DNA of 64,000 nt from Henckelia pumila. Its lineage: Eukaryota > Streptophyta > Magnoliopsida > Lamiales > Gesneriaceae. Both the position numbers and the translations under genes were made by a program. Below are positions 9,815 through 64,000 of this stretch, in pieces. Position 1 is the stretch's first letter; each line of letters starts with the position of its first letter. The notes under the pieces were generated by a model that ran no database searches, was not told the DNA's origin, and was given only the letters and a program-made list of their open reading frames with translations. The stretch covers positions 136,732,242 through 136,796,241 of the forward strand of contig NC_133123.1 in NCBI RefSeq assembly GCF_033568475.1. The letters run 5' to 3'.

Positions 9815-22324
<12,510 letters not shown>

Positions 22325-23714
22325 ATTTGTATGGATAATTTTTGATAATTCGATTCTTGCAAGTCTTGTTGGGAGGCCGGTTTATTTAAACATGTCAGGA
22401 GCTCTCATCGAGCTCAACTCTCGTTATACTAGGTCTGTAGAATTGGTATACACGTCTTTGTAGATAATATAACGATTGATGTTGTCACATTTTTATGTAT
22501 GCGGTCGCTACATTTTTGTTGTTTGGAAACACTTCATCTTTCGTTTGCCCGTTTTGGAAGACGACGTATGTATTGCCCTTGATACAGGATAATAGGATTG
22601 TATTTCTTCTATACATACATTTTGCGAGTTACGACTGTGTTACTAGTTACTTCCGGCGACAGGCAGTTTACCAAAAAGGGGGAGAAAAAAATACTACTGA
22701 GTGTCAGCTAAATTATCATGTATCACTTAAAATTAGTTATTATTAATCAACCAACCGAATTAATTACTCGAATCCCTGGAAATGTTGATTGAGTCGAATT
22801 TTGATTACATGTATAAAACTTATGGCATGGTTCCCTGCATTACCCTGCACTGTTGCTGAGGAATAAATCATTGCTAGTGCGATAAATATTAAATTTAACC
22901 AAAATGAAAAAAGGAAAGGAATCAACAACACGATTTGGCGTAAACCGAGGAAAACATTAAATTTAATCTCTGAAATCATTCTTCACTTTTGCTACATGTA
23001 AAGACATTAGACATTGTCTTGACATACATTTAAGTGTTGATATTTATCAATACATGCGGGATCCACTAGCATGTATCCACTACATTATTGGATCCGGCAT
23101 GTATTGATGAATAATTTATCTTTAGATCTATCATAGGGTAGTGTTCTTATAGGTAGCCTGAAATATTCCTATAGACAGCAAGAAACTGAACTACTCAATG
23201 AAATTAGGAGGAGAAAACTCAATTATAGAGAATCATATATTAAACTTTAATTTTCTTCTTCTACTTCTTCTTTATTTATTTTTTGGTTAAAGTAAAGAAA
23301 ATCATCTTCTTACTACAGATGGATCCACCCTTGCTTCAAAAGTCAATTTGTTCGATTGGATCTAACAATCACGGTATCACCTAATATCCAACTACTATAA
23401 CTTCACTTTAAAAAAAAATTTATGCCTAAAACAAAGATGCAACAACTTATCTGCCTTGCACGCTAGAAACCACCATTAGTTGTTTAGTCCCCATCAAACA
23501 ACAGCTCTTTTCTTCATTTTCAAGGGAGATGAAAAGTTCCAAATAAACTCATCATATTCATGCACTATTTTTCTAGCAATCGATCAAGAAACTTCATCTT
23601 CAAATCTTCCCTCCCCTTTCTCTCATTGTAGACCTTGTCGGGATCGACCAAGAATTCTTGGAATTTGGTTTGATCAGTATTTCACTAAAAATTATCGACA
23701 TAGGACTCGAAAAC
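22325..23714. other. Intergenic region between DRP2 and GXM genes
   Basis: It contains the DRP2 3' UTR (to about 22500), AT-rich sequence, one short inverted repeat (separate entry) and the GXM upstream region. No convincing gene was seen; ORFs are under 90 codons and without family resemblance. Confidence 0.5.
23041..23113. repeat. Short inverted repeat (hairpin)
   Basis: The arms 23041-23065 and 23088-23113 share ATCAATACATGC-GGATCC in inverted orientation (about 22 of 24 bases pair) around a 22-base centre. It could be a minimal MITE or a transcribed hairpin. No flanking duplication was recognised. Confidence 0.6.
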
Positions 23715-24602
23715 ATGAGAGGTAAACCACAATACCCCATTAATCTCAAGATCGTTTCGATTTGCTTTTTATTCCTTTTCTTCCTCTTCTTGATCATGAG
23801 AACGGGTTTCTCCTACTCTAAACAGATTACAACGCTCGATTCCTCGATCCTACGGACGAATTCGTCTGATGTTCATGAAGAACAACTGCCAGCAGATTGC
23901 CCAACTCTTCCTTTGTTGCCAACTTGCGACAAAATCCCATCTTCTTTGGCACGCTCACTAGTTCACTACGCAACCTTAAACATCACTCCACAACAAACCA
24001 TCAATGAAATATCCGTATCCCTGAAAGTACTCGAAAAGAAGTCACCATGCAACTTCTTGGTATTTGGTTTAGGCCATGACAGCCTAATGTGGACATCGCT
24101 GAACCATGGAGGCCGCACCGTTTTCCTTGAAGAAGACAAGTCATGGATCGAGCAAATCCAAAGGCAAATCCCATCCTTAGAATCATACCACGTCGTGTAC
24201 GACACGAAGTTGACACAAGCCGAAGAGCTCCTGGAAATTGGCGTGAAAGAAGAGTGTAAAGAAGTCAGTGATCCAAGATTCTCAAAATGTCAACTTGCTT
24301 TAAAAGGTTTACCAAATGAAGTGTATGATATTGAGTGGGATCTGATCATGGTGGACGCGCCCACCGGGTACTTTGATGGAGCACCAGGGAGGATGAATGC
24401 AATATACACTGCTGGATTGATGGCAAGAAACAGGGAAAATGGCGAGACTCATGTGTTTGTGCATGATGTGAACAGGGAGGTCGAGGATAAATTCTCCATG
24501 AAATTCTTGTGTGAAGGATATTTTATAGAGCAAGAAGGCAGATTAAGGCATTTCACAGTACCAAGTCATAGGACTCGTCTAGGAAGATCTTTCTGTCCAT
24601 AA
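23715..24602 (+). CDS. Glucuronoxylan 4-O-methyltransferase-like (DUF579)
   Basis: Single-exon gene of 295 residues. The family methylates O-4 of glucuronic acid side chains on xylan using S-adenosylmethionine in the Golgi, in secondary wall synthesis. Seen here: a short basic N-terminus, one signal-anchor segment (~residues 12-30, Phe/Leu-rich), a variable stem, CPTLPLLPTCDKIP, the SAM-fold strand-loop FLVFGLGHDSLMW (~113-125), FLEED, and DLIMVDAPTGY (~213-223) followed by GAPGRM. These are DUF579/GXM hallmarks. The frame is open 19 codons further upstream (23658), but MRGK at 23715 matches the usual family start immediately before the anchor. The GXM1/2/3 group is more likely than IRX15 because of overall wording; this is not proven. 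Confidence 0.9.
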   Translation: MRGKPQYPINLKIVSICFLFLFFLFLIMRTGFSYSKQITTLDSSILRTNSSDVHEEQLPADCPTLPLLPTCDKIPSSLARSLVHYATLNITPQQTINEISVSLKVLEKKSPCNFLVFGLGHDSLMWTSLNHGGRTVFLEEDKSWIEQIQRQIPSLESYHVVYDTKLTQAEELLEIGVKEECKEVSDPRFSKCQLALKGLPNEVYDIEWDLIMVDAPTGYFDGAPGRMNAIYTAGLMARNRENGETHVFVHDVNREVEDKFSMKFLCEGYFIEQEGRLRHFTVPSHRTRLGRSFCP

Positions 24603-25482: not shown

Positions 25483-27726
<2,244 letters not shown>

Positions 27727-33300: not shown

Positions 33301-35375
<2,075 letters not shown>

Positions 35376-42554: not shown

Positions 42555-45277
42555 TGTAACACCCGGTATTTTAATACGTAAATTCGCATGCATAATTAGG
42601 AAATTTATTTATTTAAAATTTTAGATTTATGGGTTAAATTATTATGTGAATTATTTGTGCATGTTTTAAGATTTATTTTCAAGCATTTAACCCATAATTT
42701 GAGATTTTTATGATTTTTGGTATTTCAATTATTTTATCGCGTAGACGGGACCGTGGACGGACGAGATGACAACTTTCTATCCAATGTATTTCATGAGCCT
42801 TTTAAGAGCCCAAAAATATTATTTTGAGTTTTATCTCCTCAAAATTATCAGTATTTAATTTTATATAATTTTAGGAGTCCATTTTTATCCAAATTTAGCC
42901 AAAATATTGACTTTTAATTACCTTTAAAATTCCCTAAAATTCATATTTCGAGATTTTAAATGAGTTATCAGATTCTTAACTTTTATTTGGAGTTTTAAGT
43001 TGTATATTTTATATTTAAAACCCTTATTAATATTTTAATTACCCTATATTCTAAATTAATCAAAAATCACCAAAAAAAAAAAAAAACCCCAACCCTACGT
43101 TCAATCCTTCAGCCGCCACCCCCTCCCTTGTTCTTCATCTCCTTCATCGTGCCAGGCCAGAAAACTTCTTAGGAGATCGATTTTAAGCTTCCAAGGTGGT
43201 TGATCATCGTTCCGTCGTCCCGGAATCGTCATCTACGCTTACTTCTCTTCAATCTTCGGTGCTAGGCATGTTTCCTTTCGATTTTTTGATGCCATATCAG
43301 TGTTTATGCATGTGTGTGTGTGATTATCAGAATTATTCAAGAAATTTTCAGAAAAATCGATTGGTTTTGTTGTTATGCGCCTTGTTCTTGGATGGGTTGA
43401 ATCATGCTCACATTTTTTTAGCCATGGGTGTGTCCAGCTACTGGCCAGGGGTTCCTAGGCTGTGTGAGGGTGGTTTGGACTCGAGTGGCTCGAGTGGTTC
43501 GAGCCAAACGAGCCCAAGAAAGGGCTGGTGCAAGATCGGCCTTGTGTGTGCGCAGGTTAGGGTTCGATGGAAGGGGGTTCGACCTCTATGCGTGGGGCTG
43601 CATGGGGTCGGGGCCTTGGTCAGGTTAGGACATCGAGCGAGGTGCTCCGATTTTAAAATTTTTTTTTTAATTCTTTTGTTTAGACATTGATATTTGTCTA
43701 CTATTGTTGATTAATTGATTATGAGAGATTAGAACTCGGGTCGTCACAACAGGTGGTCGGCCAGGGGCGGCCGGAGCAGGCCGGTAGCTGCTGCTCGCGG
43801 CCGAGAGGCATAGAGGAGGGGTGATGGGTTTAGGGTTTCAGTGATGGGTCCGGGTCGGGTTGGTGGTCCGGGTCAAGTCAGTGGGTCTTGGGTTATGTTA
43901 GTTGGGTCCGGGTCCGGGTCAAGTTAGTTGGGCTCGGGTATTTTATTTTTAAGTTAATTAATAAGTCTAAGTGTTTAATTGGGCTAATTAGTTTAATTAA
44001 ATTAATGGGCTATATTAAATTTTCTTAGTGGGCTTAAATAATTAATTTAAGTTAGTCCACTAATTTTTTATGGGCTTTAGAGCCCATGGAAATTATTGGG
44101 CCAGTCTTTGGGCTTTTGGGCCCATTGGGCCAGAATAGAGTGTTATTGGGCCAGAAAATTTTATTGGGCTTAGAAATGTGTTAATGGGTTTAAGTATGTT
44201 AATGGGTCAGTCTCAGTGTTAATGAGCCAGAATTTAAGAAATTGGGCTTGAGTGTTAGGGCCAGCAGTTCAGTACAACCCATGAAAAATTGCATGTGTCC
44301 TGAATATATATTTAATTATTTTTATGCATGGAAGTTATTTTTAATATTTATATGTTAGTATGAAATTAAATTAAATATATATGAAGGACACACATTTTAT
44401 TTAAGTACATGCATTCATGAAATAATTTTTATGCATGATTTAATGTTTAAGGTTGAGCAAAAGAAAATAATTTTTATGTTGGAAGTTGAAGTAGTGTGAC
44501 AATTTAAGGGGGATTCGTCCCCATATGTGAACTATTGAAGGGCAGTTTACTGCCAATTTAAGAGGTGATTCGTCACCGCCACGTACGTTGGTTTACCACG
44601 CTGATCAGTATTTAATGTATGTATGGTTACACTATGGATACGACCTTTCGATGTTAGAAAATACTTTGCTCAACAATGTTTATGTATTATTATGATATTC
44701 AAGTTTAATTTAAGTTTATGTTATGTTCATGATATTTTTAAGCATGCTCATTCATGTATATTATGTATTAGTATTAAAGTGATTTAAATTATTTTAAACC
44801 CTTGTTATATTAGCATGTTGGGCCTCTAGGCTCACTACACTGATATGGTGCAGGTGAGTACGTAGAGGAGGATGTAGTACCCACCGGCGGCGAGGACCTA
44901 TGAGCGGACATGCAGTGACCCCGTGACCGTTGTCTGAGTCTATATGCATGTTTCGAATATTTTATCATGTTATACATTTTTATTTATTTTCAGTAATTGA
45001 CACTATTGTATGTTTTTATTTAAATATTTTCAGTGCATGTAAACTTTAATTTATTTTGCTTTTGTCAGTATTTTATTAAATGCATGACTCAGATATTTAA
45101 TTTATGAAATATTAAAGTTTCGAATTGTTGCATTATTTTATTCAAGTTATTTATTTTTAAAAACTACTTATTTTGTGCATATATGTATGGACATGTATGT
45201 ACATATTTTTACTTAGTAAGTATATAAAAAAAATTTTCCGCATATTTATTTACATTTAGAGAGTTAGGGTCGTTTCA
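42555..45277 (+). repeat. Tekay 5' LTR (mosaic)
   Basis: It begins TGTAACACCCGG and ends GTCGTTTCA. It matches the 3' LTR throughout except that 43632-43757 (126 bp, AT-rich, ending gggtcgtcacaacaggtggt) replaces a GC-rich hairpin segment of the 3' LTR, and a 17-bp piece (cagcagccatggggtgg in the 3' LTR) is missing. ORFs inside (for example 43196-43690) are not genes. Confidence 0.92.
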
Positions 45278-45295: not shown

Positions 45296-45463
45296 TTCTT
45301 GGAGGGGTCATTACTGCTATGCGAGCTCAGAAATCCACGCTACCGGTCTATAAGTTTTAAGTGTTTATAGCATGATTTACTTTTAAGAATTTAAGTTAGC
45401 ATTAATGTTAAAGAACTTAGCTATGCATGGCGATTTACGTAGAGATATATGTGGTGGTGCAGA

Positions 45464-46475
45464 ATGCCTCCCAGACCTGTGAACAGACGTGAGGGATCTC
45501 CACCTCCACCCCAGGATCCACTTGCAGCATTGGAGCAGGCCAATGCTAATATGATGGCAGGGATTACTGCTCTGTTGGAGCAGCAGGCTGCACGTCCTAG
45601 ACTGTCCCACGAGGAGGACGTAGCTGAGCGGTTCCAGAAGAAGGGACCGAAGGAGTTCACTGGTACCACCGATCCATTGGTGGCTGAGGGGTGGATTCGC
45701 TCTTTGGAGTCCATCTTTGCATACATGGGGATTACTGACGCCGACAGGGTGAACTGTGCGACTTATATGATGAAGGGAGATGCAGCTCTTTGGTGGGAGG
45801 GTGCTGCCAGGGGAGTACATCTTCCTACATTGACTTGGGCGGAGTTTAGGCGTATCTTCTACGCCAAGTATTTCACGGAGGATGTGCGCAGTTGCATGAT
45901 CCGGGAGTTTATGAGTCTCCGGCAGGGGAACAGGTCAGTGATTGAGTATGTGAGACAGTTCGAGAGGGGCTGTCATTTTGTGCCTCTGATTTCAGACAGT
46001 CCACCGGAGAAGATGAGGCAGTTTGTGGAGGGACTGAAGGCGGATATCAAGCATGACGTACATATGATGGACGTCGCTACATATGAGGCGGCAGTTAGTA
46101 GAGCACTGAGGTCAGAGGAGGGTAGGAGAGAGATACAGCGAGAGAAGCAGGGGAAGATACAGATTCAGTCTGGATTTCAGCGACCATCTTCGCAGCCTCC
46201 TACGAAGAAGCAGTATACTGGGCCGTCTAAGGGCCCGAATCAGCAGCAGAGGCCACAGCAGCCGAGGGGCGGGGCCCCTAATACTGGAGGTTTTCCTACT
46301 TGCCCGAAGTGTCAGAAGATGCATTCGGGACCTTGTTTTCTGGGAGCAGAAGTTTGTTTCCACTGTAGAGAGCCAGGGCACCAGATAGCTAATTGCCCGA
46401 GGAAGAAGAACACCACTGGTAGAGTGTTCGTTATGCAGGCAGAGAAGGCAAACCCAGATACCTCCTTGATCACCG
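45464..46475 (+). CDS. Tekay gag polyprotein (nucleocapsid)
   Basis: It starts at the MPPRP methionine typical of Tekay (the frame is open slightly upstream to 45449). It contains the gag capsid region (WIRSLESIFAYMGITD; ALWWEGA; FRRIFYAKYF; FMSLRQGNRSVIEYVRQFE), a Gln/Pro-rich linker and a CCHC zinc knuckle CFHCREPGHQIANC near residue 305, for RNA packaging. The continuous frame ends at a stop (46490-46492), but the protease frame resumes after an intron-like segment from 46476, so 46475 is given as the exon end. Confidence 0.85.
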
Positions 46476-46689
46476 GTATATCTTACCCTTAGTATTTTAT
46501 GATTTCTTCCTTTGGTTAAGAATTTCGATTTTTTTTTCTTGTGGAATATTTGTTATTTGGGATTTCTTATCTGCATGTTAGAATAAGAAGCATGTTTTAC
46601 TTGTGATTAGAATTAAGGGTTATTAGTGACTCATCTTTGGGGGAAAGTTTAGTAGTGGTATGAAATTGTTGGGATTCTTCTGCGTGCAG
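46476..46689 (+). other. Intron-like segment between gag and protease
   Basis: These 214 bp begin gtatatc and end ctgcgtgcag, are AT/T-rich (notably a T-rich stretch around 46527-46540) and interrupt an otherwise continuous gag-PR reading frame: phase 1 before, phase 1 after. The segment contains stop codons. Removal by splicing would put gag and protease in one frame. It could be a true retroelement intron controlling the Gag to Gag-Pol ratio, or an insertion that mimics one. Confidence 0.55.
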
Positions 46690-48221
46690 GGAGAATTCTA
46701 GTTGGAGGCAACTCCACATTTGCGTTGCTAGATTCAGGGGCTACACATTCGTTTATCTCCCTGGAGTTTATCAGACGGATAGGCATCACACCTGAGATTG
46801 TTGACAGTGGTTATGATGTCACTATACCGTCAGGACAGATTATTTCTACCTCTAGTGTCATTCGAGAACTGGAGTTGGAGCTTCAGGGGCACTCCATTCG
46901 CGCAGATGTGGTGGTTTTGCCGTTGAGTGGATTTGATTTGATATTGGGTATGGACTGGTTGACAGTCAATGGAGCTTCGATTGACTTTCGTCGGAGATCA
47001 GTGTCAGTGAAACCATCAGAAGGCGACCCGTTTACCTTCCATGCATCTCAGAGCAGTGATATTCCTCAGGTGATATCTCTTATTCAGGCGAGGAAGCTTT
47101 TGAAACGGGGTTGCCAAGGTTTTCTAGCAAGTATTGTCACGGCCTCAGGACCATCTAGCAGATCATTATCAGAGATAGAGGTGGTTCGTGACTTTCCGGA
47201 CGTCTTTTCGGAGGATGTTGCAGGAATTCCACCAGTGAGAGATGTGGAGTTCAGCATCGACTTAGTGCCAGACACCGTGCCTATCTCTAAGGCACCATAC
47301 AGACTTGCTCCTACCGAGATGAAAGAGTTGAAGGAGCAGATACAGGAGTTATTAGAGAAAGACTTTGTTCGTCCTAGATTTTCTCCATGGGGAGCTCCAG
47401 TATTATTTGTGAAGAAGAAGGATGGCAGTATGAGATTGTGCATCGATTATCAAGAGCTCAACAGGGTCACAGTGAAGAATAAGTACCCACTGCCGAGAAT
47501 AGAGGACCTATTTGATCAGTTACAGGGAGCTTCGGTGTTCTCCAAGATCGACCTGCGATATGGTTATCATAAGCTGCAAGTTAGAGATGCAGATGTGTCC
47601 AAGACTGCTTTCCGGACACGTTATGGGCATTACGAGTTCTTAGTGATGCCATTTGGGATGACCAATGCTCCAGCGGTTTTCATGGATCTCATGAACCGGG
47701 TTTTTCAGCCGTATCTTGATCAGTTCATCATAGTCTTCATTGATGATATCTTGATCTACTCTAGGAGCGTTGAGGAGCATAGGCAGCATCTACAGACAAC
47801 CTTGCAGACTTTGAGGGAGCATCGTTTGTATGCCAAGTTCAGCAAGTGCGAGTTTTGGCTCGAGCAGGTGGCATTTCTTGGCCACATTATTTCGAGAGAT
47901 GGGATTGCAGTGGATCAGTCGAAGGTTGAGGCAGTGCAGAAATGGGGTATTCCGAGGAATGCTTCGGAGATTCGCAGTTTCTTGGGTTTGGCAGGATATT
48001 ATAGGAAGTTCATCAAGGATTTTTCCTCTATTGCAGTACCCTTGACTTCCTTAACCAAGAAGAACGCGAAGTTTATTTGGAGTTCAGACTATCAGAGGAG
48101 CTTCGATCAGCTGAAGGAAGCACTCACTACTGCATCGGTTTTAGCGATGACAGTACCACACGAGGAATTAGTGGTGTACACCGACGCGTCTAAGCTAGGT
48201 TTAGGCGCAGTACTTATGTAG
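46690..48221 (+). pseudogene. Tekay pol, N-terminal part (PR-RT-start of RNase H)
   Basis: Protease active site [10 protein letters not shown] (46722-46751), then RT with CIDYQELN, the FxDL-like [12 protein letters not shown] and catalytic [11 protein letters not shown], followed by the RNase H start [14 protein letters not shown]. It ends at an amber codon 48219-48221 that interrupts a domain continuing in the same frame afterwards. The stop is consistent with a C-to-T transition at a CHG site. Confidence 0.88.
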
Positions 48222-50063
48222 TGTGGTAAGGTTATTGCTTATGCGTCGAGGCAGTTGAAGATTCATGAGCAGAACTACCCGACACATGACTTGGAGTTAG
48301 CAGCAGTGGTCTTCGCTTTGAAAATCTGGAGGCACTATCTGTATGGCAAGAAGTGCAAGATTTTCGCTGATCACAAGAGCCTCAATTACTTCTTCACTCA
48401 GAAGGAGTTGAACATGAGGCAACGGAGATGGTTGGAGTTGGTTAAGGATTACGACTGTGACATTAGCTACCATCCGGATAAAGCTAATGTAGTGGCCGAT
48501 GCTTTGAGTCGGAAGTCGTCAATGGTATCATGTTTGTCAGTGCAGTTACCACTGCAGAGTGAGATTCAGAGGTTTGATTTGGAGTTTTACTCGAGTGGTC
48601 ATGCACTGAGCTTGTCAGTGTTGACGGTGCAGCCAATTTTACGGGATCGGATCAGAGAGGGACAGTCTACTAATGAGGAGTTGCAGCGTTGGAGACAGAG
48701 AGATGAGGCCAAGGGTAGTCTTCTGTATACAGTTGTGGATGGCATTGTTCAGTACCGTGGTAGGATGTGGGTACCGAACGTCGATCAGTTGAGAGCTGAG
48801 ATTCTAGCAGAGGCTCACACATCTCCGTACTCCATTCACCCCGGAAGTACGAAGATGTACCGAGATTTGCAGCTATTGTATTGGTGGCCCGGGATGAAGA
48901 GAGACATCGGGAGAGTTATGTCAGAGTGCTTGACTTGTCAGCAGGTCAAGGCTGAGCATCAGCGTCCAGCAGGACTTCTTAGACCTCTTCCTATTCCGGA
49001 ATGGAAATGGGAGAACATTACGATGGACTTTGTAGTTGGTTTACCGAGGAGTTCCAGAGGTTGCACAGCTATTTGGGTGATCATGGATAGACTCACCAAG
49101 TCAGCTCATTTTTTACCGGTGAGGACTACTTACTCGTTGACACAGTATGCAGAGCTTTACATAAAGGAGATTGTTAGACTGCATGGCATACCAGTGTCGA
49201 TAGTATCAGACAGAGATCCGAGATTTACGTCTGCGTTTTGGAAGAGTTTGCACACTGCATTGGGGACTAGACTTTTGTTCAGTACAGCGTTCCATCCCCA
49301 GATAGATGGACAGTCTGAGAGGGTGATACAGATTCTTGAAGATTTACTGAGAGCCTGTGTCATCGATTTTCAGGGCTCATGGGAGACGATATTGCCGTTA
49401 GTGGAGTTTACCTATAACAACAGTTTTCAGTCGTCTATAGGTATGGCTCCTTATGCAGCATTGTACGGGAGGAGATGCAGATCTCCTGTGCATTGGGATG
49501 AGGTTGGTGAGAGGATTTTACTTGGTCCTGAGATCGTGCAGCAGACAGCTGACATTGTGACTCAGATTCGGGATCGAATGAGGACTGCTCAGAGTCGTCA
49601 GAAGAGTTACGCAGATACTCGACGACGAGAGTTGGAGTTCGCAGTAGGTGATCACGCGTTTCTGAGAGTGTCACCTATGAAGGGAGTGGTACGATTTGGC
49701 CGGAGAGGGAAGCTTAATCCTAGGTATATAGGGCCATTCAAAATCTTGGAGAGAGTTGGCACGTTGGCCTACCGTTTAGCTCTACCGCCAGGGCTTGCAG
49801 CAGTGCACAACGTCTTCCATGTATCCATGCTTTGGAGATATGTCTCTAACCCGTCGCATGTGTTGGATTTCAAGCCCTTGCAGTTGCCACCTGATCTAGT
49901 TTATGAGGAGAGGCCAGTACGGATCTTGGCTAGGGAGGAGCGGAGACTTAGGACGCGAGTCATATCGATGGTCAGAGTCCAGTGGCTGAATCACTCGGAG
50001 GAGAAAGCTACTTGGGAGACCGAGGCAGACATGAGGACTCGCTACCCGGAGTTGTTCGGGTAA
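48222..50063 (+). pseudogene. Tekay pol, C-terminal part (RNase H-INT-chromodomain)
   Basis: Same frame as the upstream part, after the internal stop. RNase H continues ([30 protein letters not shown]). Integrase has the H2C2 zinc-binding domain ([11 protein letters not shown] ... [11 protein letters not shown]), a DDE core ([21 protein letters not shown], and Glu in DGQSERVIQ), the GPF/Y module ([20 protein letters not shown]) and a terminal chromodomain-like segment ([14 protein letters not shown]...YPELFG). It stops at TAA 50061-50063, about 45 bp before the 3' LTR. Confidence 0.88.
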
Positions 50064-50108: not shown

Positions 50109-52759
50109 TGTAACACCCGGTATTTTAATACGTAAATTCGCATGCATAATTAGGAAATTTATTTATTTAAAATTTTAGATTTATGGGTTAAATTATTATG
50201 TGAATTATTTGTGCATGTTTTAAGATTTATTTTCAAGCATTTAACCCATAATTTGAGATTTTTATGATTTTTGGTATTTAAATTATTTTATCGCGTAGAC
50301 GGGACCGTGGACGAACGAGATGACAACTTTCTATCCAATGTATTTCATGAGCCTTTTAAGAGCCCAAAAATATTATTTTGAGTTTTATTTTCTCAAAATT
50401 ATCAGTATTTAATTTTATATAATTTTAGGAGTCCATTTTTATCCAAATTTAGCCAAAATATTGACTTTTAATTACCTTTAAAATTCCCTAAAATTCATAT
50501 TTCGGGATTTTAAATGAGTTATCAGATTCTTAAATTTTATTTGGAGTTTTAAGTTGTATATTTTATATTTAAAACCCTTATTAATATTTTAATTACCCTA
50601 TATTCTAAATTAATCAAAAATCACCAAAAATTAAAAAATAAACCCCAACCCTACGTTCAATCCTTCAGCCGCCACCCCCTCCCTTGTTCTTCATCTCCTT
50701 CATCGTGCCAGGCCAGAAAACTTCTTAGGAGATCGATTTTAAGCTTCCAAGGTGGTTGATCATCGTCCCGTCGTCCCGAAATCGTTATCTACGCCTACTT
50801 CTCTTCAATCTTCGGTGCTAGGCATGTTTCCTTTCGATTTTTTGATGCCATATCAGTGTTTATGCGTGTGTGTGTGTGATTATCATAATTATTCAAGAAA
50901 TTTTCAGAAAAATCGATTGGTTTTGTTGTTATGCGCCTTGTTCTTGGATGGGTTGAATCATGCTCACGTTTTTTTTAGCCATGGGTGCGTCCAGCTGCTG
51001 GCCAGGGGTTCCTAGGCTGTGTGAGGGTGGTTTGGACTCGAGTGGCTCGAGTGGTTCGAGCCAAACAAGCCAAGGAAAGGGCTGGTGCAAGATCGGCCTT
51101 GTGTGTGCGCAGGTTAGGGTTCGATGGAAGGGGGTTCGGCCTCTATGCGTGGGGCTACATGGGGTCGGGGCCTTGGTCAGGTTAGGACCGCCCAGACGTG
51201 AGCTACGTCTGGGCGGCGGAGCTCCGGCCAGGGGCGGCCGGAGCAGGCCGGCAGCAGCCATGGGGTGGCTGCTGCTCGCGGCCGAGAGGCATAGAGGAGG
51301 GGCGACGGGTTTAGGGTTTCAGTGATGGGTCCGGGTCGGGTTGGTGGTCCGAGTCAAGTCAGTGGGTATTGGGTTATGTTAGTTGGGTCCGGGTCCGGGT
51401 CAAGTTAGTTGGGCTCGGGTATTTTATTTTTAAGTTAATTAATAAGTCTAAGTGTTTAATTGGGCTAATTAGTTTAATTAAATTAATGGGCTATATTAAA
51501 TTTTCTTGTGGGCTTAAATAATTAATTTAAGTTAGTCCACTAATTTTTTATGGGCTTTAGAGCCCATGAAAATTATTTGGTCAGTCTTTGGGCTTTTGGG
51601 CCCATTGGGCCAGAATAGAGTGTTATTGGGCCAGAAAATTTTATTGGGCTTAGAAATGTGTTAATGGGCTTAAGTATGTTAATGGGCCAGTCTCAGTGTT
51701 AATGAGCCAGAATTTAAGAAATTGGGCTTGAGTGTTAGGGCCAGCAGTTCAGTACAACCCATGAAAAATTGCATGTGTCCTGAATATATATTTAATTATT
51801 TTTATGCATGGAAGTTATTTTTAATATTTATATGTTAGTATGAAATTAAATTAAATATATATGAAGGACACACATTTTATTTAAGTACATGCATTCATGA
51901 AATAATTTTTATGCATGATTTAATGTTTAAGGTTGAGCAAAAGAAAATAATTTTTATGTTGGAAGTTGAAGTAGTGTGACAATTTAAGGGGGATTCGTCC
52001 CCATATGTGAACTATTGAAGGGCAGTTTACTGCCAATTTAAGAGGTGATTCGTCACCGCCACGTACGTTGGTTTACCACGCTGATCAGTATTTAATGTAT
52101 GTATGGTTACACTATGGATACGACCTTTCGATGTTAGAAAATACTTTGCTCAACAATGTTTATGTATTATTATGATATTCAAGTTTAATTTAAATTTATG
52201 TTATGTTCATGATATTTTTAAGCATGCTCATTCATGTATATATTATGTATTAGTATTAAAGTGATTTAAATTATTTTAAACCCTTGTTATATTAGCATGT
52301 TGGGCCTCTAGGCTCACTACACTGATATGGTGCAGGTGAGTACGTAGAGGAGGATGTAGTACCCACCGGCGGCGAGGACCTATGAGCGGACATGCAGTGA
52401 CCCCGTGACCGTTGTCTGAGTCTATATGCATGTTTCGAATATTTTATCATGTTATACATTTTTATTTATTTTCAGTAATTGACACTATTGTATGTTTTTA
52501 TTTAAATATTTTCAGTGCATGTAAACTTTAATTTATTTTGCTTTTGTCAGTATTTTATTAAATGCATGACTCAGATATTTAATTTATGAAATATTAAAGT
52601 TTCGAATTGTTGCATTATTTTATTCAAGTTATTTATTTTTAAAAACTACTTATTTTGTGCATATATGTATGGGCATGTATGTACATATTTTTACTTAGTA
52701 AGTATAAAAAAAAAAATTTCCGCATATTTATTTACATTTAGAGAGTTAGGGTCGTTTCA
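50109..52759 (+). repeat. Tekay 3' LTR
   Basis: 2,651 bp, TGTAAC...TTTCA. It includes a perfect GC hairpin at 51188-51216 (12-bp arms CCGCCCAGACGT around GAGCT) that is absent from the 5' LTR. ORFs inside (50752-51325) are LTR-internal and not genes. Confidence 0.95.
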
Positions 52760-53014: not shown

Positions 53015-53480
53015 ATCCAAGTCAAGAAGTAAGAAGAAGAATATTTACTGTTTTAAATGTGGCGGTAAAGGGCACTTCAAAAGAGAGTGTACGAAGAGCA
53101 TCGAAAAGGGATCCGAAATATTATTCAGCGAAGCAGCAATGGTTGTGGAAGGTAGACACAAATTTTGTGATGCATGGATTATGGATTCAGGAGCGACGTG
53201 ACACATGACGTTAAGGAGAGAATGGTTCGATCAGTATGAACCAGTCTCAGGAGGATCTGTATTCATGGGAAATGATCATGCCTTGGAAATCGCTGGGGTC
53301 GGTACCATTAAAATCAAAATGTTTGATGGTACTATTCGCACCATACAGGAGGTACGACATGTGAAGGGCTTGACAAAGAATCTTTTGTCTTTGGGGCAAT
53401 TGGATGATATTGGGTGCAAAACCCGTATCGAGAAAGAGATCATGAAAATTGTGAAAGACGCTTGTAGTTATGAAGGCAAA
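53015..53480 (+). pseudogene. Copia nucleocapsid knuckle and protease (broken)
   Basis: In a frame shifted from gag, 53049-53090 encodes the CCHC knuckle CFKCGGKGHFKREC. The protease motif DSGAT follows at about 53184-53198 and is immediately cut by an opal codon at 53199-53201. The frame then continues (LRREWFDQYEPVSGG ... KNLLSLGQLDDIG) to about 53470, where the integrase reading is taken over by another frame. Confidence 0.8.
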
Positions 53481-54606
53481 AAAGGTTGCTGCAAATCTGT
53501 ATGTATTGTTGGGGGAAACACACAAAGAGGCGGAACTAGCTGTTGCATCAATTGGTTCGGGAGAAGAATCAACAGTGTTGTGGCATAGAAAGCTCGGGCA
53601 TATGTCAGAACGAGAAATGAAGATTCTCTCAGAACGAAAGCTGTTGTTGGGGCTTACAAAAGTGACTCTACCCTTTTGTGAGCATTGTGTTACCAGTAAA
53701 CAAAACAGATTAAAGTTTGGCACATCTACTACCAAAAGCAAAGGCATATTGGAGCTGATTCATTCTGATGTTTGGCAAGCACCTGTGGTATCCCTAGGAG
53801 GAGCGAGATACTTTGTCTCGTTTATTGATGATTTCTCTAGGAGATGTTGGGTGTATCCAATCAAGAAGAAGTCAGATGTTTTCAAAGTTTTCGAAGTTTT
53901 CAAAGCGCGGGTTGAACTTGATTTTGATAAGAAAATCAAGTGTTTGAGGACTGACAATGGAGGAGAATATATCAATGATGAGTTTGATGCATTTTGTCAG
54001 CACGAGGGCATCAAAAGACAGTTCACAACGGCTTACATGCCTCAGCAGAATGGAGTGGCGGAGCGGATGAACAGAACTTTGTTGGACAGAACAAGGGCCA
54101 TGTTGAGTACTGCGGGTCTACCAAAGTCATTTTGGGCAGAAGCAGTCAAAACCGCTTCTTACATCATCAATCGTTCTCCTTCAGTGGCGATTGATTTGAA
54201 GACTCCGATGGAGGTATGGACTGGCAAGCCAATTGATTATTCTCGGCTACATACATTTGGAAGTTCGGTGTACGTTTTGTACAATGAGCAAGAAAGATCA
54301 AAGTTGGATTCCAAATCCAGAAAGTGTATCTTCTTGGGTTATGCTAATGGAGTAAAGGGGTTTCGCTTGTGGGATCCCACTATCCACAAGCTTATCATTA
54401 GCAGAGATGTTATCTTCGAGGAAGATAAAGTGAAGGGAGACAAAGACACACTGAATTCAGAAACTACTATCATTCAGGTGGAAAATAATACAGACGAAGA
54501 TCAAATTTCTTGTGAAGCAGTACCAGAGCACGAGGAACAAGAACCAGTTGAGTCAGAGGTTTCCAAAGTGAGGCAGTCAATTCGAGAGAGAAGACCACCA
54601 GGTTGA
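53470..54606 (+). pseudogene. Copia integrase
   Basis: GAG-pre-integrase segment (LWHRKLGHMSEREMKILSER with CEHCVTSK forming HHCC), DDE core (IHSDVW, RTDNGGEY, and Glu in QQNGVAERMNR) and the C-terminal region ending RQSIRERRPPG. An in-frame opal codon stands at 54604-54606, after which RT-encoding sequence continues in the same frame. Confidence 0.88.
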
Positions 54607-56548: not shown

Positions 56549-56789
56549 TGCTACAACTTAAATTGTAATTCACCCAAGTGTAGGTTGTCTGCAAGTAATA
56601 TACTCGTGAGTACGAGATCGATCCACGGAGAGGATGTTGTAAGTTTAATTTTAGCAATAATATATTATAGATGAAAATATTATTATAAAACTTCAAATAC
56701 ACAAATTATGAAATTGTCAAGGTTTCAAAGGTTCATTGTTGGTTTAATTAAGATTGCTAAATAAAAATAAATAAAAGAAACTAAAATAA

Positions 56790-57038
56790 AAATAAACATA
56801 AAAGAACAATGAAATATTTAAACAAGTATATCATATAATATAGTTCCCACTATATTAATATCCACCGATATTTAATACATGGTACCCATAATATATATAT
56901 AAATGAATAAATATAAACATAAAAAGAACAATTAAATATTTAAACAAGTATATCATATAATATAGTTTCCACTATATTAATATCCACCGATATTTAATAC
57001 ATGGTACCCATAATATATATATAAATGCATAAATATAA
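56790..57038. repeat. 122-bp tandem duplication in Athila LTR
   Basis: Two copies containing atatttaaacaagtatatca and ccgatatttaatacatggta, offset 122 bp (for example gaaca at 56804 and 56926), with very few differences. Confidence 0.85.
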
Positions 57039-57042
57039 ATTG

Positions 57043-57350
57043 ACATAAAAGTAAATGTTAGATCAAATCACAATATTTTATTTAGAACAACCGGCAGAGC
57101 CACGCTATCGTCTAAATAAAATATATGACTTTATGTTAGATGCGATAAAGTAAATGTTAGTTGCGGAAAAGTAAAAGTTAGATGCGAGAAAGTAAATGTT
57201 AGTTGCGGAAAAGTAAATGTTAGTTGCGATAAAGTAAAAGTTAGATGCGATAAAGTAAATGTTAGTTCAAATCACAATATATTATTTAGAACAACCGACA
57301 GTGTCACGCTATCGTCTAAATAATATATATGACTTTATTATAAATAATAA
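57043..57350. repeat. Minisatellite and ~210-bp repeat in Athila LTR
   Basis: A 19-20-bp unit (gcgataaagtaaatgttag and variants) repeats about seven times at 57140-57260. It is flanked by two copies of a ~90-bp block (tcaaatcacaatat.ttattt, then cacgctatcgtctaaataa) starting near 57061 and 57267. Confidence 0.8.
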
Positions 57351-58337
57351 TATATTTATAGTATATAATTATTGTAGTAATTATTGTATCATATTTGACA
57401 ACAAATCAAGGTAACCACATTCAAGGTACCAAGCATTTGATGTAAATAGATAACAACAAATCATCCAAAATTATACCTACAAATAAAGATCAATTAGTAA
57501 AAATAAAAATAGAAAAGAAAAGAATATACAAAATATAGACAATCTTACTTGACCAACAATGAAACCTTTTCACCTTGACATAAAAAGATTTAGCTTTCCA
57601 TGAACATGAAACTCAAGAATAAAGATAAAAGAAATTTCATACTTGAACTTGAGAAACTTGCACACTCAAACTTTTATTCTCACACACACAATATTTATTT
57701 TACAAATGAAGAATTCTCTACACTCTTGCACACTACAAAGCTTATACAACACATCTATTTATAGGCCAAATGAGAGGAAGAGTCCAAGGCTCATTAAATG
57801 TGAAATAGTAAAGTTGGTGGGTGCTTGTCTCCTTGAATGTCAATACCATGACCCAACTTTAATTGGCATGTTTGATGCCTTAGACCACCGATTCAGCCTT
57901 TCTTTTCAACATAGAACACGTAGGATATTTTTTGTAGATGTGTTTGGACAACTCATTCACCCCTTTTGGATAAAATATGAAATACTTATGATATTTTTAC
58001 TCCAAGCTGGTCATAGTAAAAGTAAATCTATCTCCATTTTGATGTTTTATTATTTTGATCATCTTAATGAAGTTTTTGGAATTTCTTGTCTTCTACAAAG
58101 TTGAAGATGCCTCTTTTGTGATTCTACAGGTTTTGAGATTACTCCATTATGACCACTGTAGCTTGAGTAATTTTATTTTTACCAAACCTGCGCAAACCGT
58201 AAAATACAACATTTTAGTAAAACATTTAAATATAAACACATAACACTAAAATAATACAACTTCATAATTTTAATTAAACTTAAATTTTAAAACACACTTT
58301 TTAACATATAAATAATTACAAATTTTAAGTTTCATCA

Positions 58338-58349
58338 CACCCCCAAACC
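58338..58349 (-). promoter_or_regulatory. Athila polypurine tract
   Basis: The minus strand reads GGTTTGGGGGTG immediately before the LTR start TGATGAAA; it primes plus-strand DNA synthesis. A second similar purine run (GTTTGGGGGAGGG, complement near 59650-59665) lies upstream. Confidence 0.65.
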
Positions 58350-59790
58350 GGCTAATTACTAGTCCCTTAGTAATAAAATATCATAAAATATCATAAAATC
58401 ACAAGTTAGATTTTTATTCCTTAATATATATATTCAAATTTGCAAACTTTAAAATTTTAAAAACACACTTGTGAGGAGATCATATGTTTATTTATAAATC
58501 TCATTATCAACCAATATATTAATATGTAATTGGATGGGCTATACATATATATTTCACACAATATCAAAATAGTAAATATATATAATTTTTTTTTTTTTTT
58601 TTTTTACATAAATATTTTCTAAAAACTTTGAGAATAATATAATTAAAAGGATAATAGAAATCATTTTCATAACATGTATATCATCAGGAATATTAATGTA
58701 AAAGTCTCAACTCCATATTCTCTCGGGTTAAAGTATTTCATATATAGCTGTTTTTCACTCGTGGAGTTGGAAGAAAATTATACACTCTTTGAAAATGGCT
58801 AGTAAAGCAGACAATCAAATAACCTAATATTGAAAATAAGATAGGATGATTTACAAAGAATAAACCCATTTTGTTTTTGTTTTTTTGTTTTTTTGTTCTT
58901 TTGTTTTTTTTTGTTTTTGCTTGGCTGCAAAATTGTTTTTACATAATCAAATACCTCCAATAAACTTTGAAAATGTAACATTTTTTTTTCAAAGTTTATT
59001 TATTTTTTTATTTTTTATGAGGTAAATCTATTACATTAATAATTATAGTAGAGATATTAATACTCTACATCTTTACAATCAAACTTCAAACAACTTTGCA
59101 GCCAATTTTCATTTTTTTTTCTTTTTTTTTTTTCAAAATGGGTTTAATCTAGTAATCAACCATTTCTTAATAATCAATAAAAGCTTATAAGTTGTTTTCT
59201 CAATTCTTACCCCTCACTCACAAAATTTATGTGAGTAACTATTGCACTTTTACAAATTAATTCCCTCAATTATACATGTTATTATTTATTCAAGCAATAT
59301 CACTTTAATTATATACTCATAAAAGTTTTAAAAAATATGTATTTGAAAACACACAATTATATATTATTTATAACTTATATCCCATCAATTATATATTTTC
59401 TATTAAATTGATAAAAAGAAGAATAAATAAACATCTATACAAAAAGACTTCATTTTCTTAGTAGTTTGCAATTTAAATATATACGGAATATTAAAATCTA
59501 ATCTATTGTGATAAGATGATAAATAAAAACTAATGCGTGTCAGGAGTTTTTGACTCCTTACTCTGCCATTGAAAAAGAAAAATAAATATTATTATAGAAA
59601 TATATTTTTTTAAAAAAATTTTAAATTTTTTTTTTTTTTTTTTTAGAGATAAACCCTCCCCCAAACCTGAATATGACATTGTTTTTAATTTTTTTTTTTT
59701 AAGAAAAATAAAGAGTACATGATGAAAGAGATATCACCTGGAATTATTGAAGATGAGGAACAAACACAAACCATTTCATGACATGTTGAA
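58350..59790 (-). other. Non-coding region between LOG-like ORF and PPT
   Basis: AT-rich with several long poly(T) runs on the plus strand (near 58590, 59110 and 59640) and a PPT-like purine run. No ORF of note. Confidence 0.5.
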
Positions 59791-60429
59791 TCAATGATCC
59801 AGTTTTCTTTTCTTACTGGTTGGTTGAGACCAATTGATCTTTGTTATAGCTGAATCAGGTTGATGAACAAAAGCTTGGAGATCATCAATTAATTGGTCTT
59901 CATTCGAAGCAGAGATGAGCATCCTTCGTGAATTTTCTGAAATAAAATTTTGTTCCACGGCTACATCGAGAAAAGTCAACAAACCATCATAATAGTTATT
60001 GATATTCAACAAGCCAACAGGTTTATTATGGATATTAAGTTGTGCCCAAGAAACAACATGAAAAATTTCTTCTAAAGTACCAAAACCAACAGGTAAGGCA
60101 ATAAAAGCATCAGAATTTTCTATCATTTTAGTTATTCTCTCGTACATTGATGAAACTTTCAACTCTTCCCCAACCGTAACACCTGTAATATTTCCTTCAG
60201 CTAAAGCTGTAGGAATAATACCCAAAACCTGACTACCTCCAAGATGAGCTGCTGTTGAAATAGATCCCATTAACCCAATATTGCCTCCTCCGTAAACCAA
60301 GTGAATTTTTCTCTCTGCTAAATTTTTTCCAAGATTAATTGCTGCATCAACAAATATTTCATTCTTTCCAGTATTAGAACCACAAAAGACACAAATATTT
60401 TTCAATTTTTGTGAAGAAGATCCTGTCAT
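59791..60429 (-). CDS. LONELY GUY-like phosphoribohydrolase in an Athila element
   Basis: Uninterrupted 212-codon ORF, the usual LOG length. LOG enzymes hydrolyse cytokinin riboside 5'-monophosphates to free active cytokinin plus ribose 5-phosphate. Seen: a Rossmann-like start VCVFCGS-type (NICVFCGSNTGK, ~11-22), LVYGGGNIGLMG (44-55), IIPTAL, MYERI with the conserved Arg (~98), LPVGFGTLEE (112-121) and WAQLNIHNKPVGLLN (128-142). The signature PGGxGTxxE is altered: the first Gly is Val, and the Lys normally after the Arg is Ile; the catalytic-type Glu is present. The C-terminus SKKRKLDH resembles a monopartite nuclear-localisation signal. Plant LOG genes have several introns, so an intronless copy suggests capture through RNA. 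It lies between INT and the 3' LTR on the element's strand. The open frame argues for recent capture or selection; activity is uncertain. Confidence 0.88.
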   Translation of the reverse strand: MTGSSSQKLKNICVFCGSNTGKNEIFVDAAINLGKNLAERKIHLVYGGGNIGLMGSISTAAHLGGSQVLGIIPTALAEGNITGVTVGEELKVSSMYERITKMIENSDAFIALPVGFGTLEEIFHVVSWAQLNIHNKPVGLLNINNYYDGLLTFLDVAVEQNFISENSRRMLISASNEDQLIDDLQAFVHQPDSAITKINWSQPTSKKRKLDH

Positions 60430-60619
60430 GTTTTTTTCTTTTCTTTTAAAAAATATAGAGAGAGTTGAGTGATTTTATAAGGAAAACAAGGAATAAGACA
60501 GAAATAGGAATACAGATGTGAACAAAATGATGAAAATAGTAAAAAAAAATAATATATAATAATAACATGCATGCGTATAAACAGTGATGTGATTGTGGCT
60601 CACAGTGTTCCTTCAATAT
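60430..60619 (-). promoter_or_regulatory. Spacer with TATA-like box upstream of LOG-like ORF
   Basis: On the minus strand, TATAAAA (complement of 60473-60479) lies 44 bp upstream of the LOG ATG and is followed by tcactcaactctctc and an A-rich leader. This could be a separate promoter or merely AT-rich leader. No ribosome re-initiation signal is evident. Confidence 0.3.
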
Positions 60620-61171
60620 TTATGAGTCGAGGGTTGGCTTACCATCCAATTTTCTTATAAATTGGCAAATAGGGTCTTTTTTAGTCAGATTCCCAAGACC
60701 ATCACCATGACGCTGCGCTTGGAATAGTTTCCATAAACGGAGAAGTTGACCTTGTACATCTCCACTAGAATGCGTCTCAAGAGTCAATGAGATATCATCC
60801 AATGACTCTTTACTCAGCCCATTCTTAATGAAATCAATTTTATCTTCTCTATTTGTGGAAACATATCCCAAAGATCTGCATTGTCTATTACAAGTCCATC
60901 TGGCACAATTATGACAAACATCTAACCTTTTAGCCCTTCTTTTCTTCGCATAGGTACTTTTTCCTAGTCCAGACATATTTCGAACAAGTAAGAATTTTGG
61001 AACTTCACCACCTAATCGAACCTTGGCTTCAATTATAAGACGAATATCCTCCGGGATTCCTTTTTGCATAAGCATTCTCAATCTTTCACATCTGCCTTCA
61101 TAAATCATTCTCAGAACTTTTTTAGAAACAGATGGAAAATATTTACCAAGTTTTTTGATAGCTTCATCCAT
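60620..61171 (-). CDS. Virus-like Cys-rich nucleic-acid-binding protein ORF in Athila
   Basis: Uninterrupted 183-codon ORF. The central region has a basic run KSTYAKKRRAKRL (71-83) followed directly by a Cys cluster (C86, C89, C94, C98; CHNCARWTCNRQC) and then DFIKNG. This order, basic GxSxYAxxRRA followed by CxxC...C...C, is that of the small Cys-rich nucleic-acid-binding proteins of carlaviruses and relatives (Betaflexiviridae; Carla_C4 type), known as RNA-binding/silencing-suppressing or transcription-modulating factors. The N-terminal 60 residues (GIPEDIRLIIEAKVRLGG) also resemble their helical lead-in; the C-terminal 60 residues are unassigned. Identification is by pattern from memory; alternatives are a divergent element-specific zinc-finger protein. 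Any suppressor function is inference. Confidence 0.55.
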   Translation of the reverse strand: MDEAIKKLGKYFPSVSKKVLRMIYEGRCERLRMLMQKGIPEDIRLIIEAKVRLGGEVPKFLLVRNMSGLGKSTYAKKRRAKRLDVCHNCARWTCNRQCRSLGYVSTNREDKIDFIKNGLSKESLDDISLTLETHSSGDVQGQLLRLWKLFQAQRHGDGLGNLTKKDPICQFIRKLDGKPTLDS

Positions 61172-61317: not shown

Positions 61318-63210
61318 TTAAGTTGGATCATATAAAGGCATAAACTCTTCATTAAGAACTTCATTTTCTATAAACGGTTTAAGTCTTTGCCCATTAACTT
61401 TAAATACATTATTATTTTTAGGATTTTCAACATCAACAGCACCATGAGGATAGAAAAATTTAACAATAAATGGTCCAGACCATCGCGATCTAAGTTTTCC
61501 TGGAAACAAATGCAAGCGATAATTATAAAGTAAAACTTTTTGTCCGATTTCAAAAGATTTTCTCATAATATTTTTATCATGAAATGCTTTTGTTTTATCT
61601 TTATAAATCTTTGCATTTTCATATGCATCATTTCTTAATTCTTCTAGTTCATTTAATTGCAATTTTCTTGATTTAGATGCATCATCTAAATTAGTATTAA
61701 ACGCTTTAATTGCCCAATAAGCTTTATGTTCAATTTCAACAGGTAAATGACAATGCTTTCCAAAAACTAATCTATATGGTGACATCCCCAATGATGTTTT
61801 AAATGCAGTTCTATATGCCCATAATGCATCACTTAATCTTAAAGACCAATCTTTTCGATTTGGATTGACTGTTTTTTCCAAAATTTGTTTTATTTTTTTA
61901 TTTGCAAGTTCAACCTGACCATTCGTTTGAGGGTGATATGGAGTAGAAACTTTATGTGTAATACCATATTTTCTTAACAACGAAGAAAATGATTTATTTA
62001 TAAAATGACTTCCCCCATCACTTATTATAGCTCTAGGTATTCCAAATCGACTAAAAATATTTTCTTTCAAAAATTTTATCACAACTTTATGATCATTAGT
62101 TCTACATGCAATTGCTTCAATCCATTTTGAAACATAATCGACAGCTACTAAAATATAAGTGAATCCAAAAGATAATGGAAATGGACCCATAAAATCTATT
62201 CCCCAACTGTCAAATATTTCAATAATCATGATTGGATTTAAAGGCATCATGTTTCGTTTTGAAATTGAACCCATTTTCTGACAATTTTCACAAGATTTGC
62301 AAAATGAATGTGTATCTTTGAATAAAGAAGGCCAATAAAATCCACATTGAAAGATTTTTGCAGCTGTTTTCTTTGACGAAAAATGACCTCCACATGCCTC
62401 AGAATGACAAAATTTAATGACACTACTTACCTCATTGTCGGGTATGCATCGTCGAAAAATTTGATCAGGACAATACTTAAACAAATAAGGATCATCCCAA
62501 TAAAATTTTTTGACCTCTTTCAAGAATTTATTTTTATCTTGTGAACTCCAATGAGAAGGCATTTTATTTGTCACAAGAAAATTTACAATATTAGCAAACC
62601 AAGGCATAGTAGTAGCATAAAATAGTTGATCATCCGGAAAATTTTCATTTATTGGTATTTCATTTTGAGATGATTTAGAAATTATTCTTGATAAATGATC
62701 GGCTACTACATTTTCTTTTCCTTTTTTATCTTTTATTACAAGATCAAATTCTTGTAACAACAAAATCCATCTTATTAATCTCGGCTTAGCATCTTGTTTA
62801 TTTGATAAATATTTTATGGCAGAATGATCAGTGTAAACAATAGTAGTAGAACCAATTAAATAGGATCGAAATTTATCTAATGCAAACACTACTGAAAGTA
62901 ATTCTTTTTCAGTTGTTGAATAATTGATTTGAGCACTATTTAAGGTTCTACTTGCATAATAGATCACATAAGGTTTACCTTCTTTTCTTTGTCCTAACAC
63001 GGCTCCTACAGCATAATCACTTGCATCACACATTAATTCAAATGGTAAAGACCAATCAGGAGGTTGTAAAATAGGTGATGTAGTTAAAAGATTAATTATT
63101 TTTTTAAAAGCAGTTTCACATTCTTGAGTCCATTCAAATTGTGCATCTTTTGTTAAAAGATTTGAAATTGGTTTCGATATTATGCTAAAAATTTTTAAAT
63201 CGTCTATAAA
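61318..63210 (-). pseudogene. Athila pol, RNase H and integrase part
   Basis: The frame is open from at least 63324 to the stop at 61318-61320, but homologous sequence begins near 63210 after the frameshift. RNase [57 protein letters not shown]. Integrase: H2C2 (HSEACGGHF ... CKSCENCQK), catalytic Asp in [10 protein letters not shown], Asp in ISDGGSHF and Glu in [10 protein letters not shown], then GPF-like [20 protein letters not shown]. No stop codons inside, so apart from the shift the copy looks young. Confidence 0.9.
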
Positions 63211-64000
63211 ATCCCGCATGACCCAAAAATGATCGAATTTCTTTGATCGTGTTTGGTGATGGTAGATTAGCAATAACATCAACCTTAGCTTTATCAACTT
63301 CAATTCCTTTTTCAGATATGACATGCCCTAACACAATTCCGGATTTAACCATGTAGTGACATTTTTCCCAATTTAAAACAAGATTTTTTTCTTCACATCT
63401 TTTTAAAACTTCTTCCAAATTTTTAAGACAGTTTTCAAATGAGTTTCCAAAAACAGTTATATCATCCATAAAAACTTCCACAAATTCTTCAATCATGTCA
63501 CTAAAAATACTTAGCATGCATCTTTGAAAAGTAGCCAGGGCATTACATAAACCAAATGGCATTCTTTTAAAAGCAAAAGTTCCGAACGGACAAGTGAAAG
63601 TAGTTTTTTCTTGATCTTCTAATGATATTGGTATTTGATAATACCCCGAATACCCATCAAGAAAACAATAATAAGGATTACCTGCCACTTTCTCTAAAAT
63701 TTGATCTAAAAATGGTAACGGAAAGTGATCTTTTCTAGTTGCATCATTTAATTTTCTATAATCAATGCACATACGCCAACTAGATGGAATCCTAGCTTGT
63801 AATAATTCTCCCTTTTCATTTTTTATAACAGTGATGCCTGATTTTTTTGGTACTACTTGTGTTGGACTTACCCATTTACTATCCGAGATTGGATAAATAA
63901 TTCCGGCATCTAATAGTTTTAAAACTTCATTTTTAACAACTTCTTTCATGTGTGGATTTAATCTTCTTTGTGGTTGTTGATATGTTTTAGCATTTTCTTC
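63185..64000 (-). pseudogene. Athila pol, reverse transcriptase part (5' partial)
   Basis: Continues beyond the right edge (the frame is open through 64000; the methionine at 63949 is internal). RT motifs: YPISDSKWVSPTQVVPKKSG, MCIDYRKLNDATRKDHFPLP, FLDGYSGYYQIPI, FKRMPFGLCNALATFQRCM, catalytic VFMDDITVF, and [13 protein letters not shown] at the end of the thumb. The frame is lost near 63200 (FKNF stop) while the homologous sequence continues in the overlapping frame below, indicating a small indel in an A/T run. Confidence 0.9.

Follow-up and report, generated by a model that had tools for sequence, protein, structure and literature searches.

In the 64,000-nucleotide stretch of Henckelia pumila DNA analyzed here (hereafter the window), an intact LOG-type phosphoribohydrolase ORF lies downstream of the integrase of a Ty3/gypsy LTR retrotransposon, on the strand of the element, and is separated from the integrase by an ORF resembling the nucleic-acid-binding proteins of carlaviruses (NABP-like ORF). 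The explanation we prefer, for which we see about an even chance, is that this element carries, next to the NABP-like gene, a captured LOG with a remodeled pocket, which would act on a non-cytokinin nucleotide, and that the two genes would favor the element against host control.

Gene order in the window and in a related contig

The reverse transcriptase part of pol (63185..63949) and the RNaseH and integrase part (61318..63324, a 668-aa ORF) are both encoded on the minus strand and follow the RT-RNaseH-integrase order of Ty3/gypsy LTR retrotransposons; the element is presumably of the Athila type. Since these two ORFs are in different frames, pol is broken by a frameshift near 63.2 kb in the window copy, which for this reason is probably inactive as an element. 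On the same strand, the integrase is followed by the NABP-like ORF (60620..61171, 183 aa), a spacer (60430..60619), the LOG ORF (59791..60429, 212 aa) and a G-tract. The spacer contains TATAAAA, which starts 50 b ahead of the LOG ATG; in DNA this rich in A+T, it may occur by chance. We identified a candidate polypurine tract with an ACAATG...GGTTTGGGGGAGGG motif (59654..59682, minus strand), as well as a second G-tract, GGTTTGGGGG, followed by TGTGATG (58333..58349, minus strand), the tract itself being at 58340-58349, as an alternative candidate for the polypurine tract and the LTR start. Self-comparison of the window did not delimit the 3' LTR of the LOG-bearing element, whose 5' end is beyond the window, and no Rfam matches were found at gathering thresholds. 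A cluster of 122-b, 63/21-b and 94-b repeats at 56785-57345 is possibly in or near this LTR.

The LOG ORF is intronless, ends in KKRKLDH and was assigned to the LOG family by its matches to Pfam and to NCBIfam TIGR00730. Its best PDB sequence match is AtLOG3 (At2g37210, 8.4e-63), a structure model predicts the Rossmann LOG fold, and its identity to 16 host rows is 46-50%. At 212 codons it is far longer than the longest ORF found in 500 first-order Markov sequences (116 aa).

Using an alignment of NABP-like proteins to search genome contigs, we found a 3.3-kb plant-like retrotransposon contig (L002, 1-3330) in a public MAG record for Candidatus Nomurabacteria, where it is evidently a contamination. 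This contig encodes an integrase 73% identical to that of the window, followed by an NABP-like ORF, with a DNA identity to the window of 72.6% over 2363 columns. An ACAATG...GTTGGGGGG motif (2584-2608) is located about 240 b past its NABP ORF, and the window has a like motif downstream of LOG. The window LOG thus sits between the NABP-like ORF and a motif common to L002, which places it inside the element: the first-pass annotation, which had described a full LOG ORF on the element strand, 3' of the integrase and within a retrotransposon, is borne out on these points. No LOG ORF was present in the last 0.98 kb of L002, after the NABP ORF, so that some relatives are without LOG, which counts against our preferred explanation. 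Between the window and L002, dN/dS was 0.36 (NG86) or 0.14 (YN00) for the NABP-like ORF and 0.155 (NG86) for the integrase, values that come from one pair and are rough because dS ranges from 0.65 to 1.4. The NABP-like ORF is under purifying selection in this single pair.

The window holds further genes and repeats. A second gypsy element (45449-50063, plus strand) encodes gag, protease, RT, RNaseH and an integrase zinc-binding domain, with a chromodomain match below the cut-off; the same 26-b GGGTCAAGTTAGTTGGGCCCGGGTCC tandem flanks these genes at 43890-43939 and 51371-51420, perhaps, as a guess, within the two LTRs. At 53470-54606 (plus strand), an ORF that we take to be copia-like contains a GAG-pre-integrase domain and an integrase core domain. 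Two minus-strand ORFs (25483-26121 and 33301-33936) match the second half of Oxidored_FMN (NADH:flavin oxidoreductase), suggesting a duplicated gene, and an ORF of the IRX15/IRX15L/GXM family is found at 23658-24602 (plus strand). At 15145-15247, ATTCCC is repeated in 17 copies with 98% matches.

A carlavirus-like neighbor

The NABP-like ORF contains a basic stretch (KKRRAKR) followed by a C-x2-C-x4-C-x3-C finger. It matched Viral_NABP (PF05515) with 25.9 bits (Pfam cut-off 23) over 84 residues and Carla_C4 (PF01623) with 23.1 bits (Pfam cut-off 20.9) over 29 residues. A protein search yielded 229 relatives, and the 120 listed include proteins from Populus, Xanthoceras, Acer, Rhamnella and Orobanche. 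When the aligned NABP-like proteins were compared to the same profiles at E 0.001, 60/67 matched Carla_C4 and 57/67 matched Viral_NABP, and the basic stretch and four-Cys finger are common to the aligned relatives. The predicted structure was of low confidence (pLDDT 64.4) and too uncertain for a fold search. One Rhamnella protein (P0207) consists of an integrase tail fused to an NABP-like sequence that is missing its first ~21 residues; the fusion may be due to a deletion or to a gene-model artefact. By joining these two parts, it shows the linkage of integrase and NABP outside the window.

The order of a basic stretch and then a Cys finger is shared with the carlavirus Cys-rich or nucleic-acid-binding proteins covered by PF01623 and PF05515. 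The NABP-like ORF differs from these proteins in its length of 183 aa, its location in a retrotransposon and the spacing of its finger. This spacing, the limited span of the two profile matches and the low pLDDT count against our preferred explanation. According to the excerpted text of PMC12172455, viral Cys-rich proteins of the carlavirus kind suppress RNA silencing, and the chrysanthemum virus B protein is also a transcription factor that induces hyperplasia. Searches of viral contigs with the NABP protein, the LOG and NABP alignments and the integrase returned only one sequence, which was LOG-like (L001, 44% identity over residues 119-197) and was left out of the subsequent analysis. The presence between integrase and LOG of a gene resembling a carlavirus nucleic-acid-binding protein, which was absent from the first-pass annotation, seems to be new, and none of the titles and abstracts found among open papers describes a carlavirus-like gene within an LTR element of plants.

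Conserved and changed residues of the LOG relatives

The LOG search yielded 6240 matches, and all counts of LOG relatives given in the following refer to the best 120 of these. Named rows in this sample came from Reevesia (26), Diplodiscus (8), Populus (6), Xanthoceras (5) and Paulownia (4), with one row each from Pterospermum, Primulina, Parasponia and Melia, and thus from both rosids and lamiids. The 26 Reevesia rows are separate clusters, clusters standing for more than 200 sequences occur, and the one from Pterospermum represents 327 sequences. LOG and NABP matches were found on contigs of identical size between 2 and 20 kb in 2 cases, against 0.13 expected (length-jitter null, P 0.0056). 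Coincidences at 905 and 1386 b, which are likely due to chance, were disregarded, and a 22-Mb Xanthoceras contig common to both sets of matches is uninformative as linkage. From the copy number and the two shared contig sizes, we infer that the LOG relatives reside in elements. They look like amplified families and not like a one-off.

In CgLOG, catalysis was attributed to Arg99 and Glu122, adenine binding to Met96, Lys100 and Glu121, and binding of the prenyl group to Met96, His97, Lys100, Glu125 and Trp129; replacement of AMP-binding and catalytic residues by Ala nearly abolished AMP hydrolysis, with the exception of one Ser (excerpted text of PMC4979012). In the numbering of the window LOG (CgLOG number minus one), Arg98 was kept in 115/120 relatives, Glu120 and Glu121 in 117/120 each and Trp128 in 119/120. 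Lys99 was replaced by M, I or L in 112/120 and retained in the other 8, Glu124 was lost in 112/120 (Q or H in 109/120, E in 8/120) and His96 was kept in just 53/120. In contrast, Lys99 and Glu124 were both present in 120/120 host rows, which are close kin of AtLOG3, and AtLOG8 and a bacterial LOG have the same residues at these two positions. Relative to the plant cytokinin riboside 5'-monophosphate phosphoribohydrolases LOG1 and LOG3, the element LOGs have the base/prenyl Lys and Glu, and also the C-terminal tail, replaced. Replacement of Tyr116 by F, L or I was dropped as a diagnostic, this motif position being variable among LOGs.

The window LOG has the catalytic Arg98 and Glu121, its residues 99 and 124 are Ile and His, and it reads M, Y, I, H, W at the positions that are Met, His, Lys, Glu and Trp in the cytokinin-specific base/prenyl pocket. 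Its PGGxGTxxE motif is PVGFGTLEE, with Val in place of a Gly that is kept in 114/120 relatives. With the NCBIfam cytokinin-LOG equivalog model it scored 119 bits (cut-off 300), a weak test because a HERK protein, which has the classic pocket, also falls below the cut-off (132 bits).

The eight catalytic and phosphate-loop sites had a mean of 0.375 changes compared to 5.3 for random sets of eight sites, none of 20000 of which were as low; the PGGxGT phosphate loop and the catalytic sites of the LOG relatives are under constraint. On a 43-row tree, position 99 changed 8 times and is never other than I, M or L, which argues that it was re-constrained rather than decayed. The pattern suggests that a different pocket is under constraint, not that the pocket is decaying. 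The rows are related, so that row counts are not independent events. The combination of a changed base/prenyl pocket with a kept catalytic Arg/Glu and phosphate loop seems to be new.

At the C-terminus, 98/112 non-HERK relatives, 0/8 HERK rows and 0/120 host rows have LxLxL within the last 12 residues, a feature that also seems to be new; the corresponding counts for a basic cluster within the last 22 residues are 108/112, 5/8 and 1/120. Among representatives sharing less than 80% identity, 19/23 have LxLxL as their very last residues, with a variable linker before it; positions -10 and -8 are basic in 19/19 of these. The EAR repressor motif has the form LxLxL, and we take the basic cluster to resemble a nuclear signal. 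The window LOG and the four rows that make up the rest of its 5-row clade have kept KKRK and have no LxLxL, so that the EAR-type motif is absent from the window copy; this counts against our preferred explanation, as does the Val in the PGG motif of this copy. Peroxisomal tail signals have S, A or C at -3, and such a signal was rejected because none of these residues is found there.

To place these sequences, a tree of 67 rows was used, comprising 42 changed-pocket relatives and the window copy, 4 HERK rows, 18 host LOG1/3-like rows, AtLOG8 and one bacterial LOG. All 43 changed-pocket LOGs, including the window copy, are held by one branch with a support of 99/98, and the four HERK rows join them at 96/91, apart from the 18 host LOG1/3 rows and AtLOG8; the bootstrap is unsettled and several branches are long (the bacterial row, AtLOG8, R0120 and others). 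The phylogeny that the first-pass annotation had proposed thus returns the sampled changed-pocket LOGs as one clade, and this single clade apart from host LOG1/3 genes seems to be new. The tree, whose host rows are LOG1/3-like genes and AtLOG8, does not place the element clade within the LOG1/3 rows and so does not show the donor. The HERK rows, which number 8 among the best 120 relatives (five of them from Xanthoceras), are possibly host genes.

Prior reports, rival explanations and a possible role

The first-pass annotation, which knew of no described example of LOG in an element, was overtaken here by earlier reports. Steinbauerova et al. are said to have described in 2011 two Athila-like elements similar to LOGL4. 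A 2022 paper, which cites Steinbauerova 2011, reported YgdH/LOG domains in the consensus sequences of gypsy elements from two Citrus species and, when its filter was not applied, in Populus gypsy elements as well (excerpted text of PMC9289625). These Ty3/gypsy elements have a LOG-domain ORF as in the window; in the excerpted text of that paper there is no mention of a carlavirus-like ORF, a changed pocket, an LxLxL tail or further LOG-bearing species. The same excerpt describes gypsy elements of Phalaenopsis that carry an AlkB m6A demethylase and are likewise a case of a captured enzyme retained over many copies, although the enzyme is another one and its activity was demonstrated in vitro. 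Judging by the titles and abstracts of open papers, PMC9289625 is the single one that concerns LOG in elements. The words "LOGL", "lonely" and "cytokinin" are absent from the review PMC7264820. The earlier literature on LOG domains in gypsy elements consists of passing mentions.

The first-pass annotation proposed that the element raises active cytokinin. If the element LOG still activated cytokinin, with catalysis kept and the pocket changes tolerated, free cytokinin would go up on expression, and the predicted LOG fold, the kept PGGxGT loop, Arg98 (115/120), Glu121 (117/120) and the prenyl-pocket Trp128 (119/120) are all consistent with this. The proposal is weakened by the loss of the adenine/prenyl Lys99 and Glu124 in 112/120 relatives each, the retention of His96 in 53, the deviant PGG motif of the window copy and the near abolition of AMP hydrolysis by Ala at AMP-binding and catalytic residues (excerpted text of PMC4979012); the equivalog score of 119 against 300 bits points the same way, weakly since the HERK protein also fails. 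We consider this reading possible yet somewhat disfavored, and a captured LOG re-tuned for another nucleotide or a nuclear role fits better. That LOG is a chance passenger which does nothing for the element appears unlikely: the broken pol and deviant PGG motif of the window copy and the missing LOG ORF of L002 would agree with it, but conservation of the catalytic sites far exceeds that of random ones, the pocket residues look re-constrained, the tail is conserved behind a variable linker, and the sampled changed-pocket LOGs form one clade with named rows in rosids and lamiids.

We regard it as improbable that the clade represents an old host LOG subfamily, or a non-plant LOG, picked up by elements secondarily or several times. 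The tree on which the clade is not nested had no more than 18 host rows of LOG1/3 type, AtLOG8 and a single bacterial LOG, and the eight classic-pocket HERK rows may be host genes, which would suit such an origin; the many related clusters per genome, some above 200 sequences, and the 43 changed-pocket rows on one branch (99/98, bootstrap unsettled) speak against it.

According to the explanation that we prefer, the Ty3/gypsy element would carry two accessory genes downstream of pol, with the carlavirus NABP-like gene coming first and LOG second. The LOG-fold enzyme would have been captured, a single time so far as the sample goes, the likeliest donor being a plant LOG gene. Because the catalytic Arg/Glu and the phosphate loop are kept, this lineage most likely still cleaves a nucleoside 5'-monophosphate, and with its base/prenyl pocket and C-terminus apparently remodeled, it most likely acts on some nucleotide used instead of cytokinin riboside monophosphates or in addition to them, perhaps partly in the nucleus. 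By analogy with the viral proteins, the NABP-like partner resembles an RNA-silencing suppressor and might act as one, and the pair would favor the element against host control; an NABP-like gene beside a remodeled LOG looks like a host-manipulation set. A more specific version, which we hold to be rather doubtful, is a retrotransposon lineage with a two-gene set of a carlavirus-type silencing suppressor or nuclear factor and a nuclear LOG cleaving a different nucleotide signal, whose EAR-like LxLxL tail, seen in most members, could bring in the co-repressor TOPLESS.

Taken together, a single clade among the sampled rows, catalytic sites that are conserved, a re-constrained pocket, a new C-terminal signal and a virus-like neighbor suggest a functional module that acts on the host. 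Whether retrotransposons, as viruses do, carry genes for counter-silencing and nucleotide signaling is a question that can now be tested.
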